Positions 3,502 to 16,269 of a stretch of DNA of 64,000 nucleotides are shown in pieces. The stretch is taken from assembly GCF_000002865.3 (NCBI RefSeq), contig NW_001865070.1, forward strand, positions 8,012-72,011. The letters run 5' to 3'. Position 1 is the first letter of the stretch. The number at the start of each line of letters is the position of its first letter. The DNA is from Monosiga brevicollis MX1. Taxonomy: Eukaryota > Opisthokonta > Choanoflagellata > Craspedida > Salpingoecidae. The translations under genes were made by a program, and so were the position numbers. The notes under the pieces were generated by a model, which saw only the letters and a list, made by a program, of their open reading frames with translations, was not told where the DNA came from and ran no database searches.

Positions 3502-5229
3502 TCAGTGCCAATCTGAAGACTTCGACTCTACACGCCCACATGTCGTACTTCGCAAAGCAAGTCGCCGCCGACGCTTGCAACACTTGCAAAACCATTGACA
3601 TTGCTCAGGGCTTCATTATGCTACCCTCCACAGCAAAACGACCAATGAGATGCTTGACATCACACAATCATTCTATGAGCCAACGCCAGGCGCTGACAAC
3701 ATACACTGAGGCCCAAGTCCCCGCCAATGCTGGTAAGACTCTGGAACCCATTGACGTTTGTCAGTTTGCGATTATACTGTTCGTGTTGACAGAACGTCCG
3801 ATGAGTCAGCAGACCACGATCCCAATGATTGAGTTATGGACGCCAAGTTCCGACTGAGCGTGCCGGCGCAACGTACGCCCAAGGAAACGTCGCCGCCGAC
3901 GCTTGTGATATTCGCAAGCCCGTCGATGTTGATCAAGCCATTATTGTCCTGCCCATCACACAGAAAAAAAAATAAAAAAAAAATTAAAGGTTGAGATTGA
4001 CCACAATCTCAATCGAAGCACGCCAGCATGCGACCTTGACGCTAAGCTTGCAAACGACTTACATTCAAGCAGACATTGCCAGGAATGCTTGTAAGACCCG
4101 AAAGCCCATCGACATTGATCAGATCATCATTGGACTACTCAAGTTGGCATGTTACCCATTGAATCTCTGCGATGGCACGCTAGATCCGCAATCACAAAGG
4201 ACACACCGACACGTGCATGCAGCTCCAAGTGGCCACCGATGCTTGTAAGACTTCTCAACCCGTCGACATTGGTAAGAGCGTTATTGTGCTAACAGAGGCT
4301 TGAGGCACATTCCAATGCCACCGAGTTTACGCAAGGGCCAAATCTGCGACCTCGACATACGACGTACTGCCAGGTTCAAAACGCCGCCAATGCTTGTGAT
4401 GTTTGCAAGCCCATTGATGTCGACAAGGCCAGAAATATACTGTCCAAGCAAGACAACCAATGACCACAAGCCCAGCCGATCATTCCCCCCCCAAAAAACC
4501 AAAGGGTTTGACTTACACCGAGGCTAAAGAAGCCACCAACAGTTAGGGTTCTTTTCAATCCATCGACATTGGTAACTGCATCATTGAACTGCCGAGGCGA
4601 GTAGAATGACTGATGAGACGTATCCAAAGACAGCCAAGAGGGTTGGCTGCTTATGCTTGAAGCTCACGCGTCTTTCAGATCCTCTCCTCAACTCGAAAGC
4701 CGATCATCCAGTGAGGTCAAATCCAAGCACACGGCGGCGCCTCGTCACTTACATAGATTCGAAAGTTGCCACTCACGTAAACAAGCTTGCTGAAAATGAG
4801 CAGATCCGTCGACCTCAGTTGTACACACTCATCAAGCAAGAAGCTGCCTTGAATATGTGTCACGCCCGAGGGAACATTCTCCAGCTGACATCCAACTGTG
4901 CCAAAGTGTGTCACGTTTGTGTTTGCGGGCGCGGTCGTGGTGGTGAGGACCGTGCTGGCAGTCGTGGTAGTGGAGGCCGTGGTGGGGACCGTTGTGGTGG
5001 AGGCCGTTGTCGTCCTGCCAGCATAGAGCCTCCGCAGATCAGCCAACTCTTGGATCACATCAACACCGTTGAGCAGCAGCCGCGCATCCCCGCCCGAGGA
5101 TGAGCTGTTGATGAAAAGGTTGCCATCCACATCGACTCCAATGGTTGGCTCGGCACTAGCCAGATTGGCGCAAACCACGCCCTGAACCAGTACTGCAACC
5201 AGGCAGCGCACGATACCACGCAACACCAT
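3399..5229 (-). CDS. Secreted or membrane leucine-rich-repeat protein with one-LRR-per-exon array
   Basis: Exon 1 (5229-4753, 159 codons) starts with a signal peptide (MVLRGIVRCLVAVLVQGVVC), then a Thr-rich stretch and an LRR cap, and ends at a GTAAGT donor. Seven more exons follow, each exactly 72 bases and in phase 0: 4588-4517, 4439-4368, 4288-4217, 4134-4063, 3948-3877, 3776-3705, 3620-3549. Each encodes one 24-residue repeat of the form xNxxLxNVDGLxxLTSIGGxL, as in receptor-L-type LRRs. Introns are 77-164 bases. All begin with GT except the one after 4217, which reads GCACGT. A ninth exon from 3479 gives a short tail to a stop at 3399, but this 3' end is uncertain. No membrane segment is visible in the confirmed part. 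Likely a cell-surface or secreted recognition protein; ligand unknown. Confidence 0.8.
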
Positions 5230-6379
5230 GCTAGCCAGCCTGGAAAAAACGTGCAAAAAAAAAAAAATCACATGTCACGTTGCAGCTATCACACAATGAC
5301 CCACACTTTTTATACACTTTCGCACACAACGACCCACCCAAAAATGTCATAAAAATCCAAAAGTGACCAAAAAATCGCGATAAAGCCTGGCACTTACGAG
5401 ATGGTCGTTCTGAAATGTCGATTCCGGTGCTATGGCGCTCAATAGGGCCACCATCAGGCTCACTCAGAGTAGCGAGAACATGTGTATCATCTGATTCTGG
5501 TTTCAAAACATTTTCGCACGATTTTCGTGCCACATCTTGCTGCAAACCATCCAACCATGCCAACGGCAAAGTACCCGTAATTGCACCTCCAGCTTGCACT
5601 GTGACCGAGGTCACACGTGTGTGCGCGCCCCCGTCACCATCTGGCTCTGTTTCGTTGTTTCTCTCGTCGGTTCTTCCTCAATTTTCTTTTCGTCTGTTTG
5701 GGCTCGAGAACAACTTCACTCAAGCAAACCCATGTGGGGACGTCGATTGAAACAAGCCAGTCATTCCTCAAGAACATGGATTCTCAACACTTGGTCTTTC
5801 AATCCTGATCAAATAGTTAGCCAATGATTCAACCCCTTTGAGGAATGACCGGCGAACAAAATGAAATTTCCACACGTCACGAGTTTTAAGAGCGCGCCCT
5901 TCAATCATACACATTATCCGAGTTTGCTCGGATTGTTGTCCATTCTAAACGCGCGCCTCAAAACAATTAGTTTTCCATGCTTGTGGTTTGATCATCATGT
6001 AGCTCATCGATGACAGCCACTTGGCACGAATAGCCGGCGCGAGTACTTACTTGGCTTAGAACTTTGCAACAATTGGCCAGAGATCATCAAACGCGCGCGA
6101 TTCAAACACGGTTGGCTCGCGGCGCCACCCGATGCTAAATAGGACGGGCAGTGCCGCCCGGCAACGCTTCTTGTGCTCGCTTAGAATCACGGCTTGAACT
6201 GCAGTCATTCATGTCCGATTGTGAGCGACGTCATGCCCCAAAGCTCGAAACGGCATTCATGCATTGTCAGCACACCTTCAGGGCTCCAGCTCTGATACGA
6301 GCCAGGTCGACAACTGCTGCGAATCATCCTGATCGCCAGCTAATGGCCGTAGTCAGAAGCATGGGTTGTCGGATGAGAG
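5230..6379. other. Intergenic; no gene recognised
   Basis: Lies upstream of the minus-strand LRR gene and downstream of the ankyrin gene. It holds an A-run at 5256-5268 and only short unrelated ORFs. It may contain 3' exons of the ankyrin gene, but I could not recognise any. Confidence 0.4.
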
Positions 6380-6664
6380 TTACTTTGTCAAGCCGATGAA
6401 GCATTCTAAACAGTCGTACGTGTTGGTTCCTCCAATATTGCCCGAGGCTATAATCAAGCGGACTTTCACCCTCCTATCCCAACCAAAGAAGGGGCAAATC
6501 GAGTGCGAGACAAGAAAAAAATTTGTGAGAATTTGAGCATTTTGTTCTAGCAGCATTGATTGTGCTGCAGCAACGAGGATTCGCGAAACATAAATCTCAG
6601 CAAATTGTACATCAAAGCTCAAAGGACACATCAATCAAAAGCCTCAAGCCATCGGAAACCAGAC

Positions 6665-7912
6665 CTCATTCATCGCATCAACATCCGCACCATGCTCCAG
6701 AAGCATGTCAACCACTGCCTCGGAATGCTCACGGCACGCAATGTGAAGCGCGGTCATCTGCAGCCACATTCGTCATCATAGGAAGCTGAGCGCATTGTCA
6801 TGCGACAGTTTACGCAGGAAACTCGTGCCCGGCTTCTTTTTTTTTGTTAAAATCATGATCAAGCAAACCCTAGGTGTCTATGACGACTATGGTCTCACGC
6901 GAATGGGTGTGCGATTGCAAGACATGGATGCGTACTTTGCCTTGGGCGTCAAACGCAGCGGCGTAGCCTAATACCTTCTTGACCACTTGCACGTGGCCAC
7001 GTTCGCAGGCCAGTTGCAGCGGCTTTTCCAAGGCATACTGCCCCGCAGAGGCAATGGAATGAGATTTGGCTATCATTCATATCAGTGTGCAACTTTTGCG
7101 CAAGCGCTCTTTGCAGACCAACCATGTGTTCGCCGCAGCAAGCATGATGGACTCGTATTGGCTTCCATTTCGCGAGAATTTGCAGCGCCGGCTGCGGATG
7201 GGGCAACCTGCACGCAGCTGCAAGCTTGAGAGTGTCAGCGATGCGCAAAAGTCTTGGGATATTTATCTTGCTTGAAAAATGCACGTACGGGCGCTCAAAG
7301 GGGATGTTGTCAAGAGGCGTGATGCCAAACTGAGAGTACACAATCATGGGGCACGGGGCACGAGAGGCACAAAATCATCGTCATTTTTTTCAAGATTTGC
7401 CGGTCAGAACCAGGGAGCAAAGAATATTATGAGACTGACCCAATTCTCAATTTTGATGTCCGCCCCGAGGAGCATCAGAGTCTCAATGTCGGACAGGTTA
7501 TGGTGGTAGCAGGCTTCGTGCAATGGCGTATCTCCAGTCTATACCAACACGGCAAGGTTTGTCGTTTCAATTCCATCAGGTCCGTTACAAAGATACCAAG
7601 CCGGTAGCACACTCACATACCCGAGGGTTGCGGTACTGTGTTGCAGATCGCAGACGGTCCTCTTCCCAGTGCTCGAACAAGTACGCCACAGGCTGTCCGT
7701 CTGGCTTGCAGCATGCCCTGTATAGCCTTTCTCCATCTGAGCTCATCGTGAACCAGCCCCTAGAGATGCAGCAGGTGAGGACAATGCCGTTCTCTGGATA
7801 AACGTAAGTGACGGCCATTTTCGTACCAGGCCAGCGAGAATAGAGTCACGTCGACGAGCGGCAACAGCTCGCCCTGGAATACGTGAATGTCTACTCCAAG
7901 ACTTTCTTGGGT
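6665..7912 (-). CDS. Ankyrin-repeat protein (core exons; ends unresolved)
   Basis: Spliced minus-strand gene. An exon starting at 7912 (after TTTTACCAG) encodes a strand-rich segment ending LFSLA; it joins through a 70-base intron, in phase, to a segment reading WGWFTMSSDGERLYRACC and ending RNPR. The next exon, 7538-7440, is exactly 99 bases and encodes one full 33-residue ankyrin repeat (TGDTPLHEACYHH... LLLGADIKIENW). A short exon with GITPLDNIPFERP follows. Further on, an exon near 7026-6925 encodes EKPLQLACERGHVQVVKK, and 6757-6665 encodes a canonical repeat (MTALHIACREHSEAVVDMLL, then EHGADVDAMNE). The segment 7060-7240 is probably another, more diverged repeat. The N-terminus (up to about 8125) and the C-terminus (down to about 6380) are not resolved. 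Ankyrin repeats mediate protein binding; the partner is unknown. Confidence 0.7.
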
Positions 7913-9114: not shown

Positions 9115-10179
9115 ATGAAGCTCGCCATCCTCGTCTTGGCCCTGGTGGCCACCAGCGCTTCGGCGTGCAACATCAGCGTCACCATCAACTTACTGGGCAA
9201 CATCATGGTAGGCTTATCACCTAAACTCATGTCGCTCGATTTCCAAAGTGCCCATCGAGGTTCTCACTCCTGCTCGCGTCCTGGTTGACAACATGGCCAG
9301 CCCTGCATCAACAGCTTTAGCAACGAAGTCTCCGAGTGTGATTCCATCCGTGACCGCGACTGCATCTGCCCTCTCCTTGAAGATTATCTGGAGGTGCGCC
9401 AATGTTGTCTACGCATGACTGAAGCCAGCCGCCCGACAGCACTCACACACCGTTTCCTCCACAGTGCACTGTGGACCAGTTTGCCCAGGTTGACGGCTGC
9501 ATTCCCGAGGGTGTTTCCAATGCCATGCGCAACGTGTTCAGCAATGCCACCCAGGAGCTCTGTACCTTCCGTTTGCGCTTCGAGATTGATGTGTCCGTGA
9601 ATGTTCCTGCTAGTAAGTTTGCCCTAGGAGCAATGCCGCGACGCACGTGTTTCAACAAGCCGGCAGCTAGCCTTTGCGTAATCCTGATGGTTGCTCTTCC
9701 CTTTTGTACGATCTGCTTGATAGACTTTGAAGCCTTTACCGAGGTCCAGGCCCGCGCCTTTGGTCGCACCATCCTCGTGACAGGTGGCGTTGAAAACTTG
9801 GAGAATGGCGCTTTTGCTGTCAGCGTAAGTCGATCTTGATCCCAAAAGCCGAAAGCTGTCAAAAAAGCCGCTTCTCTAAGCACTGCCTTACACTGCCTTC
9901 TTCTATGTATAGTGGAGCCGCGGCGACGAGAACCGTGTCATGTTCAAGGTGACCTATGTTGGTCTTGTGGCCCCCACGACGGTCCAAATGCAGACCACTT
10001 ACAACGACGTGGATTACCAGAATGACGAGGGCAACAGCGACAATGACAATGTCGAGGCCGAGGATGTGACCATGAGCTCGAGCGTGAGCGATGGCGAAGA
10101 CCCTGATGGTGGTAGCGCTAGTGCCGCAGTGCCGGCCTTGGCCCTCGGCGCGGCTCTCATGGGCGTTCGTTACCTTTAA
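9115..10179 (+). CDS. Small secreted Cys-rich protein, probably GPI-anchored, CFEM-like
   Basis: Five exons, frame-checked: 9115-9207, 9301-9393, 9465-9612, 9724-9824, 9913-10179, giving 233 residues. Exon 1 encodes a signal peptide (MKLAILVLALVATSASA). Exons 2-3 encode a Cys-rich segment, starting PCINSF, with a DRDCIC core and later Cys in ECTVD, DGCIP and ELC. This recalls the CFEM pattern (a C, then DxxCxC, then three spaced C) but lacks part of the full Cys set. Exon 4-5 encode a beta-rich region, an acidic Asn/Asp/Glu tract, and a Ser/Gly stretch followed by a hydrophobic end (AAVPALALGAALMGV). That ending is typical of a GPI-attachment signal. Function unknown; a surface protein is inferred. 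GPI-anchor genes PIG-F and PIG-C are also in this window. Confidence 0.8.
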
Positions 10180-10627: not shown

Positions 10628-10747
<120 letters not shown>

Positions 10748-10778: not shown

Positions 10779-13700
10779 TCACGAGTTGGCATGCAACGTG
10801 TCCAGAAGACGCTCGCGTTCGCGAAGCAGCTCGTCGCGCAGGGATTGCAGCAAGGTTTCCTCTCGCTCCAGCAGGTCAACCTCACGATTCAGATTGGATT
10901 GCTTGGCCTTGTTGCGTGCCCGGCGGCGTGCACAGTCCTGGCGATTGCGCTCTCGCTGCTCCTCAGTCCAATGTTTGCTGCGCTTGCCTGTGAGAACGGG
11001 CCGATCTTGAGTCTTGGCTGTGCCAGCAGTGCTGTGGTTGCTGCTGCGGCTGATCTGGCCACCGCTAGCAGGCGTGGCCGTGCCTGGAGGACCATCATCG
11101 CTGAGCGTGCTAAGGCTGGCCCCCGGCTCCACGGGTGCGGGTGGTGGAGGCGCTGCATCAAAGGGTGAGTTACCCAGGTGTGGGCTCAACTCGGGCGATG
11201 CCATGTGAAGCCACTCTGTCACAGTATCGGACAGCGGACCATTACTTGCATGCGCCTCGCTCATGCCGGCGTCTGACAACACGTCTGAATCTGAGGTGTA
11301 GAGCAGAGCACCAGGGGTCACGGCCAGTCCGCCATCGCTCACACTGCTCTGCGGCTGCAGGCTGGCCCGGGCACTGCTGCCAGCACTCGAAGGGTCGGAC
11401 ACCTGAGCCAAGATTTGCTGCAGCTCAGTGTGGCCTTGCAATTCGGCAAGTTCTGCAGGTTTGTAGCCGTTGCGATTGGCAGCGAGCAACCGACTCAAGG
11501 CCCCAACGCGGGCACCGTGTGCCAGTAGTATAGACACACAAGGCGAGTTGCCTTCGCGCACTGCGGCGTGCAATGGTGTTTCGCCATCGTCGTCCAACGT
11601 GTCCACCTGAGCGCCTCGCTCCAGCAGCTGCCGCACGGCCGAGGTATCATTGACACTCGCTGCCCAGTGCAGGGCCGTCCGTCCGTGCGAGTCTCGGGCA
11701 TTGAGTCGCTCCGAAATTGGCGTCGGGCCCGCCAGTTTGCTCAGCAAAAGAGGCAACGCTGCTGGGCGATCCATAATCACGCTGAGCATGAGCAGGGTTC
11801 GACCGTCGTGATCTTGTAGGTGCAAGGCGTCACAGGTCTCGAGGCCCAGACGTAACAGCGGTAACGCGTCAAATAGAACGGCATAGTGCAAAGGCGTCTG
11901 GCCGTCATTGTCGCACTTGTCACAGCGGCTGCCCGACTGCAGCAGCGCAGCACCCGTGGCTTCGGCCATTGGATTTTCGGCAGCATAATGGAGGGGCGTC
12001 CGTCCACGGGCATCAACGGCGTTGGGATCAGCGCCATGGCGAATCAGGTTTGCCACGGCAACTTCGTGATTGCCAATCACCTATGCACGGAAATCATCCA
12101 GTCAGCGCAGTAACAAAATGATCACATGAAATGAAAACGTAAAAGAAAAGATGGAAAAATAATTTAAAAGCATCAAAACATAAACACGCTCAAGTCAACT
12201 GCTTGTCAAGCCCACACACGTCGAGCAAGCCAAAACAAGGTCTGTGCTTGACGTACCGCACAATGAAGCGCAGTGCGCCCGGCGTCATCGCGAGCATTGA
12301 TGGGCAGCACCGATCCAACGGCACCCGAGGAGCCGGAGCCCGTCCCAGCCCCACCTGGTGAAACTGCCGCGCTCGAGGAGGCTTTCGCGGACTCGGCCTG
12401 GCTTTGAGACACAGGTGCAAGCAGTTGTTCAAGTCGGTGTTGGTCACCACTCAATGCGGCCAAATGGAGGGTTGGACTGTCGAGAGCAGGCCCTGCGCCA
12501 ATGGCCGGGGCCACGGTCGTCGCCGTGGTTGAGGAAACCTTGAGCACATGCAGCTCAGTGTCTGCTGCACCATGCAAAGGATGGCCTTCGTCGTGAACAT
12601 TGGTGTAGGGCGTATTACCGTCCTCGCGTTTGGCCCGCTTACGCATCAGGGTACCAAATACGACGAGTAATAGGATCAGAACCAGGGCGGCTGCTACAAT
12701 GATGGCAATCACCATGCTCGGGGCTATAGATGACTTTTCTTCGCCATCATCGCTAGGGGGTGACGTGGCTGAGGCTGAAACAAGAACATCTTCGTAGTAG
12801 AATTCAATCTCACCACGCTCAATGGCAGTGTCCAAGCGCGTTTGCGCTGGCTTGGAGCCGAGGGCCACCTTGGCCCGCACGTCCATTGTGCCCAGCTCGC
12901 GATACAACAATAGACAAGTCACGTCCTTAGCAAGCACGCCCACGTTGGCCAGCGAGGCGCGAAGGGTGCGCTCAAACGAGCGGCGGATAGCCGCGGCGCT
13001 CAGATCGACGTCGTCCGTACCGTTGAATATGAGATAGCTGATAAAGGAGCTCACGCATCCGTCCAAATATTTCTTGACGTTAGCACCTTGCAGATCGTCA
13101 ACATTGTCAATCGGGGCGGCAAGGTCGTCGTCGTCGTCACTGCCGTCGGCTGAGCCGCAATGCGCGAGGGCGAGGCTGTTGCAGCCGCTGGCCTCACGCA
13201 CGATAGCACACTGACAGGCAAAATCCACGAGCCCTCGACTCGAGCTGCAATAACTACCGACCTCGCGGCAGCAGGCCTCTGACGGAAGCCAGAGCGAGGC
13301 AGTGCCTTGACACGCGTCTACATGGCAGGGAGAGGCGGGGCTAGCAGTGGTAGCGTCGTCGAATGGGCACGAAACTGCGCCACCTGTTGCTGCCAGACAT
13401 AGGTGAAACAGGCCGTCTGTGGTTCGGCGCGATTCCACCGTGGCGGATGTGCAAGTTGAAACGGCCTTTCCGATTGTCGAAGTCACACGAGCCCCCACCC
13501 ACACGGTGGCGTTGCCCGTGGCCAAGATGGGTGGCACAGTACAGGAGAGCCAGCCGTTGGCGGTGCGATTGGCGACAACAAAGCAATCGGAACCGACACA
13601 AGAGTAGCCACCTTTGGAGTCCAGCGTCCAAAAGCTGCAACCAAAGGTGTACCGGTCGCCAGTAATGTCAACTTTCGGGGCCGAGGGGTACAGGACGGCG

Positions 13701-15856
13701 GTGGCGGTGGGCTCGTCAAGGCGCGCGACACACGAGTCTTCAGGCTGATTAATTACCAGCTCGTTCCAAGAACAGGGCATGTCTAGACACAATAGGGTGC
13801 ATAGATGCCATTGAGAGGCGCGGGTCAGATTGACGGCTATTGGGATGGACCTTCGCCAAATACAGCAAGACTCACCTAGATCTTCTTCAACACGAATGCC
13901 GTAGGTACAGGTGGGGTTGGATGCACCACCGGAAACCCAGAACCCCGTGGATGCCACGTCAACGCCCAGATACAACGAAAGGAGCAGAGTGGCACTGCTT
14001 TCTGGCGTGGTCACCGAGTGTGTGTCGTCGTCATCCGTGGCTGTGGACCACTGGTGTGGTACGAGCCAAGCCCAAAGCGTTTGGTTGGCAACTGCCACGC
14101 GCAGAACTTGTGCATCAGCTGCCGCAAAAGCAAAGGGTGATGCCCCAGTATGGCTATTGATGTCGTCTCGAGCGAAGGTGAGCGTGCCCGAAGACTCGTC
14201 GAGCGCCAAGCTGACGCCGATGTCCAGCAAGCTCTCATTAGCAAGACGAAGCACTATGCCAGCTTGCAGTTCGTTCGTGGCGTAGAGTCGGAGGCTGATG
14301 GCAAAGTCGTCGAGTGCAATTGGGGCCAGAAGCTCGGCCCCTATATTGCCGTAGGTGCAGATAACGCGCTCTCCAAAACCAGGGAAGAGTTCCGTGTTTG
14401 CATGAGCCGCACCCGTGAGTGGGCTGTAGGCGGTCATGGGGAAGGAGCTGGGCTGAGCACACGGGCGATCCAAGAACACCGTTTTGGGTAGGGGTACAAA
14501 AGTACAGCGCAGCCAAGGCAAGGGCTGTCCCTCACACTGGAGAAAGCAGCGCGCCAGGTCGAGGAAAAGAGCGGCAGCGATCGGATCGGTTGAGATATTT
14601 TCGGCGCATGCGGCAATGGCGGAGTAGGAAAAGTCGCTTGATTGGGCACCATCTTCTGCTGTAGCCGAGGCGCAGGTGAAGGCATCGACACAGCCCTGAT
14701 TGGTTGAGCAGGCCGCTGTTGTTGCATTGCAGCGTTCCTCGCAGGTCGAAACATCGGTGCAGCCGGCGACCCAGGTGCACGGGGTGAAGCAGTCCTCAGT
14801 CGCGGTGATGCTGGAGCAAGTGTGACGACTTGTCAGACAGGCCTTGGCAGTGGGGTTCCAAGCGCAGGATTGAGGGCCAAAGTCATCAAAGTAGGTTGAG
14901 CCCAGGCACGCATCGATGGTCACGTGGTCAAGGCACGGGTCGCTGGCCAGCTGGCAATAACCAAAAGTACACGCACGCGCAGAATCACATTGTGCCTCCT
15001 CAAGATCGGGACAGCTGCCGGCGGTCAGGCGGCAACCAGCATTCCATGCGCAACCGGCGGTGCGACAGGGATTCTCATCAGTCAGAGCAAAGCAATCATC
15101 CGTGCTATCGTAGCACAGATTGAGTGCAAAGTCCGCGGTACAGGGGGCCCCCTGAGTGGTTTGTAAAGCATCACAGGTGCTGGCGTTGTTCGCAGAGCAA
15201 GGATCGTTGTCCGAGTAGCAAACACGATACCAACTGCATCGGCCGTGAGGATCACAAGAGCTTTCATCGAGCTGGGCGCAGGTGGTATCCGCATCGTCGT
15301 CAACCCTGGCATCACAAGTGTAAAAGGCAATACCGAAGCCCTCCACAATGCTCTCAGGCGTGCTCAGAAACTGGCCATCCTGTCCGCCGGAACAACCTGT
15401 CTGGCTCCAATTGTCAGTTGTATCTGTGTTGTAGCAGTAAACCTCGGTCTCCGAGCTGTTGGGGCTGTGCATGGAACACACAAAGGGGCGGTGTGAGGAA
15501 GGGAAGGGGGCGGCAGTAAGGGGGTGCGGGGCGGGCGAGGACGAACCGGTAGCGGTAAGAACCGCCTGAGTAAAGAAGAAGCACGCCAGTACCGATGGTA
15601 GCCACGGGCACGGCCGATTCGTTGAAGGTATCATCTTGCAGCTCACTGGGCGAGGTGGCCACGCTCAGCAGGCCATCAAAACGCGCATCACCCTCGTCAT
15701 CGGTGTAGACGCTGCCCAAGTACTGTTGTCCTTCCCGTGTGTCTGCACAAAAGTTGGTCAAAACATGCCAATTTGGCAGAATAGGGAGATGTACATGAGG
15801 CATGAAAATGTTGGATCAAACAACCCCCACACCACCCGCACACCCCTGCCCTTACC

Positions 15857-15892
<36 letters not shown>

Positions 15893-16269
15893 GCGCCCGT
15901 ACCTGGGTACCAAAAGACGAAATAAACGGTATTGTTTTCGGTGTGGGCGAGCGACACATGGGGAAGGCGGTCGTCATCCACTGTGAACGAAGCAGCTTCA
16001 AAAGGGGCAGCATTGCAGTTCCAGTCTTGGTCGGGGTACCAGGCGGCGACACAGGATGACACGGGAAAGGTTGTGCCTGGTTTGGTGGTGATGGGAGAAC
16101 ACGATGCGTCGCGGCGCCACCGCTGAGGCAAAGCGCCATAATCGGCTGGCATTGGTGCACAGGTGGCACAGGTAGCGAGGCCAAGGAGCAGGCCAAGCAA
16201 CGGCCCCAGAGGCCGAGGGCGTGTGGGCGGGCCGGCCCGCTCGTGGTAGCCTAGGCGCAGAGACGCCAT
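10779..16269 (-). CDS. Single-pass receptor with intracellular ankyrin repeats and C-terminal bZIP domain
   Basis: Five exons, frame-checked: 16269-15903, 15742-15547, 15464-13876, 13782-12257, 12080-10779, giving 1659 residues (an upstream in-frame ATG at 16284 would add five). Signal peptide GPLLGLLLGLATCATCA. The ectodomain (to about 1070) has five or so PSI-like Cys modules (CxWxxxC, for example CAWNAGC and CTWVAGC), a LamG-like region and, next to the membrane, a SEA-like segment. Membrane helix MVIAIIVAAALVLILLLVVF at about 1073-1096, then MRKRAKR. About seven or eight ankyrin repeats follow (for example GRTPLHYAAEN, GRTALHWAASVND, GETPLHAAVREGN). After a Ser-rich linker, the C-terminus is a bZIP: basic region NRQDCARRRARNK with Leu at +18, +25, +32, +39 and +46 from the Asn, the exact register of GCN4. 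The layout resembles Notch; release by proteolysis is inferred only. Confidence 0.88.

Follow-up and report, generated by a model that had tools for sequence, protein, structure and literature searches.

A Monosiga brevicollis gene with a Notch-like layout and ankyrin domain and a bZIP-like C-terminal tail

Structure of the gene

We analyzed a 64,000-nucleotide stretch of the genome of the choanoflagellate Monosiga brevicollis MX1 (NCBI RefSeq assembly GCF_000002865.3, contig NW_001865070.1, positions 8,012 to 72,011), hereafter the window; in our own contig numbering it is C25:8012-72011, and searches of the species' own genome covered 39.47 Mb in 57 contigs. A Munc18 fragment encoded in this genome matches PDB 2xhe chain A, the Munc18 of M. 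brevicollis (PMC3693963), at 44 of 44 residues. One minus-strand gene of the window encodes a predicted receptor-like protein that combines a Notch-like layout and ankyrin domain with a C-terminal tail resembling a basic leucine zipper (bZIP), and for which no paralog was found with the parts searched (exons 3 and 4 and the last 206 residues). A sequence-only reading of the same DNA had proposed a membrane-tethered transcription factor with Notch-like architecture and a terminal bZIP; the present analysis supports that proposal in part.

The five exons of the gene (Table 1) translate as one frame of 1659 amino acids (aa) with no internal stop, beginning at the first in-frame ATG downstream of an upstream stop. 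All four introns (160, 82, 93 and 176 bases, numbered 1 to 4) have GT/AG splice signals, in agreement with the single frame-checked gene described earlier. The junction of exons 4 and 5 lies at aa 1226/1227, inside the best Pfam Ank stretch (aa 1219-1249), and ankyrin repeat 1 (aa 1153) shares one open frame with the membrane helix. Because intron 4 splits an ankyrin repeat, and the Pfam Ank stretch spans it, it is unlikely that the membrane exon and the ankyrin-bZIP exon are joined by chance. With a codon-usage model trained on aa 189-1226, the sense frame of exon 5 beats the other five frames in the ankyrin, linker and tail portions (0.096, 0.163 and 0.100 bits per codon, respectively), the closest rival being one antisense frame of the tail at 0.017. 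We infer from these features that the five exons form one mRNA.

In the paralog search, neither exon 3 nor exon 4 matched any other place at E ≤ 0.01, and for the final 206 residues no match beyond the self-match was better than E 0.27.

Table 1. Positions in the window of the exons and predicted domains of the receptor-like gene.
Feature	Position	Strand	Evidence
Exon 1: start codon, signal peptide (aa 1 to ~38), start of ectodomain	15903..16269	-	open frame, GT donor, hydrophobic windows aa 20-42
Exon 2: ectodomain	15547..15742	-	GT/AG introns on either side, frame preserved
Exon 3: ectodomain, Cys-rich aa 189-470 (14618-15463)	13876..15464	-	Cys count; weak Pfam; single copy in genome at E ≤ 0.01
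Exon 4: remaining ectodomain, membrane helix, juxtamembrane region, ankyrin repeat 1, start of repeat 2	12257..13782	-	frame-checked translation
Exon 5: ankyrin repeats, linker, bZIP-like tail, stop codon	10779..12080	-	433-aa open frame; codon usage
Pre-membrane segment, aa 939-1067, earlier labelled SEA-like	12734..13120	-	without sequence support for SEA
Predicted transmembrane helix, aa ~1074-1096, followed by basic RKRAKR	12647..12715	-	KD19 up to 3.58
Ankyrin repeats, aa 1152-1452	11403..12481, broken by intron 4 (12256-12081)	-	Pfam Ank_2, E 2.8e-33
Linker, aa 1453-1590, about half Ser/Thr/Pro/Gly (STPG)	10989..11402	-	STPG 0.49 for aa 1456-1590
bZIP-like tail, aa 1591-1659; basic-region Asn aa 1605 (10946-10944)	10782..10988	-	motif register, PDB, profile and shuffle tests

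Ectodomain and membrane topology

The protein begins with a signal-like hydrophobic stretch at aa 20-42, with cleavage after about aa 38 by our reading, and contains one other strong hydrophobic span, at the predicted transmembrane helix. Given the N-terminal hydrophobic stretch and a single strong span followed by RKRAKR, the protein is predicted to be a type I single-pass membrane protein. The ectodomain has 32 Cys between aa 190 and 470, and 12 of the 14 N-glycosylation sequons of the protein lie upstream of the span. The signal peptide, Cys-rich ectodomain and single membrane helix of the sequence-only reading are thus all recovered, and the membrane span is followed by ankyrin repeats, as in Notch. 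When the ectodomain was searched against Pfam, whole and in six pieces, no family came near its cut-off (best a_DG1_N2, E 0.12). Neither EGF families nor LNR (Pfam Notch) repeats are among the Pfam matches of the protein up to E 10, and NOD and NODP have no Pfam match in it.

A SEA-like segment had also been placed next to the membrane, and this part of the earlier description gained no support from the sequence. By eye, aa 939-1067 have a helix-strand-strand-helix-strand look, with Gly-Thr at the usual SEA cut position. The segment has no Pfam match up to E 10 and a sole, irrelevant PDB match (E 1.2), and the score of its alignment to the MUC1 SEA domain was equalled by 895 of 2000 shuffles in local mode and 307 of 2000 in semi-global mode. 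The Pfam SEA model matched nothing anywhere in the genome, controls included, and therefore that search is uninformative.

The ankyrin domain

The ankyrin repeats are certain and number about eight, since nine pattern starts are found and the ninth overlaps the eighth. When the genome was searched with the ankyrin domain of fly Notch (PDB 1ot8, a query of 238 residues; E ≤ 1e-8, 150 of 191 candidates scored), the receptor-like gene ranked first among 14 matches, with 91 bits, E 1.7e-24 and 41% identity over the matched stretch. The second genome match scored 68.8 bits, and an LNR-bearing gene was third with 56.4 bits. The gene does not top every ankyrin search, because in a control with the ankyrin repeats of NompC (205 residues; E ≤ 1e-6, 150 of 156 candidates scored) it ranked eleventh of 27, at 45.8 bits.

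The reverse comparison, in which its ankyrin domain was searched against 17 sequences, itself included, points the same way. By single-domain score, the self-match was followed by fly Notch (90.0) and human NOTCH1 (74.8), ahead of the LNR-bearing gene (59.1, and 56.2 in a second row of the same gene), the genomic place L032 (57.7) and the rest, which scored lower. Among PDB chains, 1ot8 was matched as one stretch of 91.0 bits, whereas for five ankyrin chains ranked above it, including a designed one, the single domains reached at most 41.3 bits among the matches listed for a shorter query. Taken together, these comparisons, made within the species' own genome and the PDB, support calling the ankyrin domain Notch-like, in the sense of likeness and not of orthology. 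To judge from its sequence, no other ankyrin domain that the genome search found is as Notch-like, so that the Notch-like layout noted earlier appears to go beyond mere domain order.

The repeats are followed by a linker (aa 1453-1590) that has no Pfam match and could be an activation or PEST-like region.

The bZIP-like tail

The basic-region Asn is aa 1605. Relative to it, Arg occupies +8, Leu occupies +18, +25, +32, +39 and +46, and Asp and Cys are found at +3 and +4 instead of Ala-Ala; in all of this the register given by the sequence-only reading is confirmed. Every one of the 19 PDB matches of the tail at E ≤ 10 is a bZIP and none is a plain coiled coil, the best being c-Fos (E 0.0089). 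The full pattern (Asn, Arg at +8, five Leu and at least nine basic residues, nine being the number observed in the tail) arose in 0 of 1,000,000 full shuffles, 12 of 200,000 heptad-keeping shuffles and 10 of 200,000 half-wise shuffles; for a four-Leu pattern the counts in the same three sets were 39, 259 and 295. We also built a hidden Markov model (HMM) from seven bZIPs of the same genome (L004 left out) and FOS, and scored it against 4000 shuffles each of three kinds. Uncorrected for composition, this model gave the tail 18.0 bits, equalled by 3, 13 and 26 of the 4000 shuffles, and without FOS it gave 12.9 bits, equalled by 37, 118 and 194.

A looser pattern (three Leu, seven basic residues) was used in a six-frame scan of 566,072 residues from 63 sources, many of them chosen as bZIP or ankyrin matches, with overlaps with the receptor-like gene counted once. 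It gave 12 distinct hits including the tail. All five Leu occur only in the tail and in L002, a bZIP above the Pfam cut-off that also has the full pattern with nine basic residues. The other 11 hits look like true bZIPs: L001-L007 pass the Pfam bZIP_1 cut-off, and L044, L048, L051 and L054 are below it. Because the latter four have a canonical basic region yet fall below, the Pfam cut-off seems to miss bZIPs in M. brevicollis. A side consequence is that searches relying on the cut-off may undercount the bZIP set of this genome. In addition, L001 and L006 have by eye a hydrophobic stretch past the zipper, as in ATF6/CREB3-type factors.

The zipper is identical to that of FOS at 20 of 54 residues. 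Its a-positions are V, E, R and R and its g-positions E, E, L and E, compared with a-positions T, K, I and K in FOS. On general knowledge of zippers, these a and g residues would disfavor a homodimer and suggest a heterodimer of the Fos kind whose choice of DNA is altered or weak. On balance, we regard the tail as bZIP-like and probably a real bZIP.

Notch pathway genes and the surrounding DNA

The genome encodes presenilin (best exon E 6.0e-20; 208.7 bits with neighboring exons) and a CSL DNA-binding domain (LAG1-DNAbind, E 1.3e-31). Release of the intracellular part by cleavage is possible because presenilin is encoded, and partnership with CSL is possible because its DNA-binding domain is encoded. 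It had been argued that a receptor with its own bZIP would not need a CSL-type partner; with a CSL DNA-binding domain in the same genome, that does not follow.

LNR repeats were found at four places in the genome, on contigs C55 and C43. One pair of them lies in L024 (C55:1214000-1223999), which has at 3853-6897 on the minus strand a 1015-aa frame with two LNR and ankyrin repeats and, by eye, a signal-like start, an EGF-like region and a membrane span. The frame ends past the ankyrin repeats without a bZIP, and further exons are possible. We take it to be the Notch-like gene described by Gazave et al. (2009) as a signal peptide, one EGF, two LNR, a transmembrane segment and three ankyrin repeats (PMC2770060). 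An alignment shows that L024 and the receptor-like gene share an insertion between two ankyrin repeats that has no counterpart in fly and human Notch. The second LNR pair, L025, was rejected as a receptor, its frame being taken by eye for a Stealth-type phosphotransferase; Richter et al. name an M. brevicollis LNR protein with Stealth domains (PMC6040629).

Close to the receptor-like gene, intron 1 contains a run of about 34 T on the minus strand (15858-15891), and a long, near-pure (GT)n run occupies about 10630-10745, starting some 35 bases past the stop codon. A neighboring gene on the plus strand (~9117-10179) lies tail to tail with it; from its frames, read by eye, this neighbor has a signal-peptide-like start and a hydrophobic C-terminus resembling a lipid-anchor signal.

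Proposed function and alternatives

We propose that the gene encodes a Notch-like, probably cleaved, membrane-tethered regulator, and put the probability of this reading at roughly one half. The protein would span the surface membrane once, in type I orientation, and function in the manner of Notch. Something outside the cell would trigger its cleavage within or close to the membrane, and the intracellular portion thereby released, consisting of the ankyrin repeats, linker and bZIP-like tail, would enter the nucleus and act on transcription. There, DNA would be contacted by the tail itself, most likely as a partner in a Fos-like heterodimer, and co-factors would assemble on the ankyrin repeats. 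We put forward tentatively a fuller version of this proposal, namely a Notch-type receptor that carries its own bZIP DNA-binding domain, is related to Notch via its ankyrin domain and, as a single polypeptide, brings the signal from the cell surface to the promoter.

Several results weigh against the proposal. For the ankyrin domain, long ankyrin proteins outrank Notch by summed PDB score, where 1ot8 is the last among the 60 matches listed, and chain 7ptx, with a single passing stretch, reaches a total of 115.4 bits, above 1ot8. In a tree of ankyrin domains (15 of the 17 rows kept, L029 being the same gene as the LNR row and L034 a copy of L033), fly Notch is the row at the shortest path from the receptor-like gene, which belongs to no supported group; only the grouping of fly and human Notch is starred, and therefore we make no claim of orthology. 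Searches for relatives, with exons 4 and 5 among viral contigs and with exon 5 among contigs of prokaryote genomes, gave 18, 1 and 32 pattern matches, none of them confirmed, a null that says little because those collections contain few eukaryotes.

For the tail, Pfam bZIP_1 is the best family, with 15.9 bits (E 0.015) for the tail alone and 9.7 bits (E 1.3) for the whole protein, against a curated cut-off of 27.6. Thus, a bZIP profile match, set beforehand as a check on the sequence-only reading, was obtained for the right family and at a score below its cut-off. A search of the genome with bZIP_1 listed 35 places at E ≤ 10, and the tail is absent from them. Of these places, 31 exceed 15.9 bits; in that list, 18 of the 27 rows below L008 start at profile position 17 or later, so that it is chiefly the zipper that is matched. 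Corrected for composition, our HMM gave the tail 0.8 bits, equalled by 504, 187 and 274 of the 4000 shuffles, and hhalign gave it a probability of 20.6%, though with P 0.0011. The Asp/Cys pair at +3/+4 may spoil DNA binding: at +4, the 11 other motif hits have Ala in ten cases and Val in one, where the tail has Cys. DNA binding by the tail is uncertain because Asp and Cys stand in place of Ala-Ala.

A first alternative is a surface receptor or adhesion protein with ankyrin repeats whose basic coiled-coil tail does not bind DNA, and instead dimerizes the protein or binds an acidic partner at the membrane. The score under the Pfam cut-off, the large share of the profile score accounted for by composition and the unusual residues at +3/+4 all fit such a protein. 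However, the tail retains Asn and Arg at both key positions of the basic region and five Leu in register, a full pattern that half-wise shuffling seldom reproduced, and its PDB matches are bZIPs throughout. We therefore regard a non-DNA-binding tail as rather unlikely. By the same balance, the earlier statement that the bZIP is not a chance coiled coil has moderate support: the PDB matches and the rarity of the pattern bear it out, whereas the Pfam scores and some of the shuffle tests do not.

A second alternative is that the protein is a proto-Notch acting through CSL, in which the ankyrin domain, once released, binds the CSL protein encoded by the genome and the tail adds only dimerization or nuclear import. 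An ankyrin domain more Notch-like than any other that the genome search found, together with a CSL DNA-binding domain encoded in the same genome, would suit this arrangement. The RAM-type motif carries a Trp, and because there is no Trp between the membrane and ankyrin repeat 2, the gene has no RAM-type motif. The ectodomain likewise gave no EGF or LNR match, and we consider this alternative a good deal less probable. Finally, two transcripts or a wrong join, with a membrane protein and an ankyrin-bZIP protein made separately through an alternative promoter or splicing, would be compatible with intron 4 being the longest of the four but is improbable, given that ankyrin repeat 1 is in the open frame of the membrane helix and repeat 2 is split in frame by the intron.

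The origin of Notch signaling is an open question, and a gene without LNR that nevertheless has the most Notch-like ankyrin domain of its genome would escape surveys based on LNR. If the tail of the proposed regulator binds DNA, the protein would connect a receptor directly to gene control in a unicellular relative of animals, and the division of Notch and CSL into a receptor and a DNA-binding partner would be one of several arrangements that evolved.

Comparison with known systems

Yeast Mga2 and Spt23 are membrane-tethered transcription regulators with ankyrin repeats, as the M. brevicollis protein may be; they differ in being endoplasmic reticulum proteins with a C-terminal span and an IPT/TIG domain, and in having no bZIP and no ectodomain. 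To our knowledge, ATF6 and CREB3-like proteins are without ankyrin repeats, and CREB3 has its bZIP in the N-terminal cytoplasmic part. What the present protein nevertheless shares with the ATF6/CREB3 type is the combination of a membrane span with a bZIP. Among membrane-bound factors, Lee et al. (2026) include ATF6, CREB3L proteins and Notch, and they also mention a MYRF of Monosiga; ATF6 has its bZIP in the N-terminal cytoplasmic part (PMC13294678). Unlike in ATF6/CREB3-type factors, the bZIP-like tail of the present protein lies C-terminal of the span, so that the order is reversed.

In open-license literature we found no description of a choanoflagellate arrangement of bZIP, ankyrin repeats and transmembrane segment, although one may exist elsewhere. 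A 2016 bZIP survey covers M. brevicollis, and its main text is without the words "ankyrin" and "transmembrane" (PMC4736632). Another article claims Notch proteins in protists and bacteria, with Monosiga unnamed in the available portion (PMC7649014). According to PMC4810162, King et al. (2008) reported three genes that between them carry the Notch cassettes of EGF, LNR and ankyrin. Their ankyrin-cassette gene could be the gene described here, in which case only the bZIP-like tail would be new.

Richter et al. (2018) took EGF, LNR, a membrane span and ankyrin repeats, in order, as strong evidence for Notch (PMC6040629). Because that survey, in the portion available, required the LNR ("Notch") domain, the receptor-like gene would be passed over by its criteria. 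Notch of Mylnosiga fluctuans (PMC6040629) is likewise a choanoflagellate protein with a membrane span and ankyrin repeats, and has EGF and LNR in canonical order where the present protein lacks both. The gene of Gazave et al., taken as L024, resembles it in having an ectodomain, a membrane span (by eye) and ankyrin repeats; it differs in its two LNR and EGF-like region and in an ankyrin domain that scores 56.4 bits to fly Notch, versus 91. Compared with animal Notch itself, the protein has no EGF, LNR, NOD or NODP match and no RAM-type Trp, and it ends in a bZIP-like C-terminus. In common with animal Notch it has the order of signal peptide, Cys-rich ectodomain, one span, ankyrin repeats and flexible tail, and an ankyrin domain that is collinear with that of Notch.

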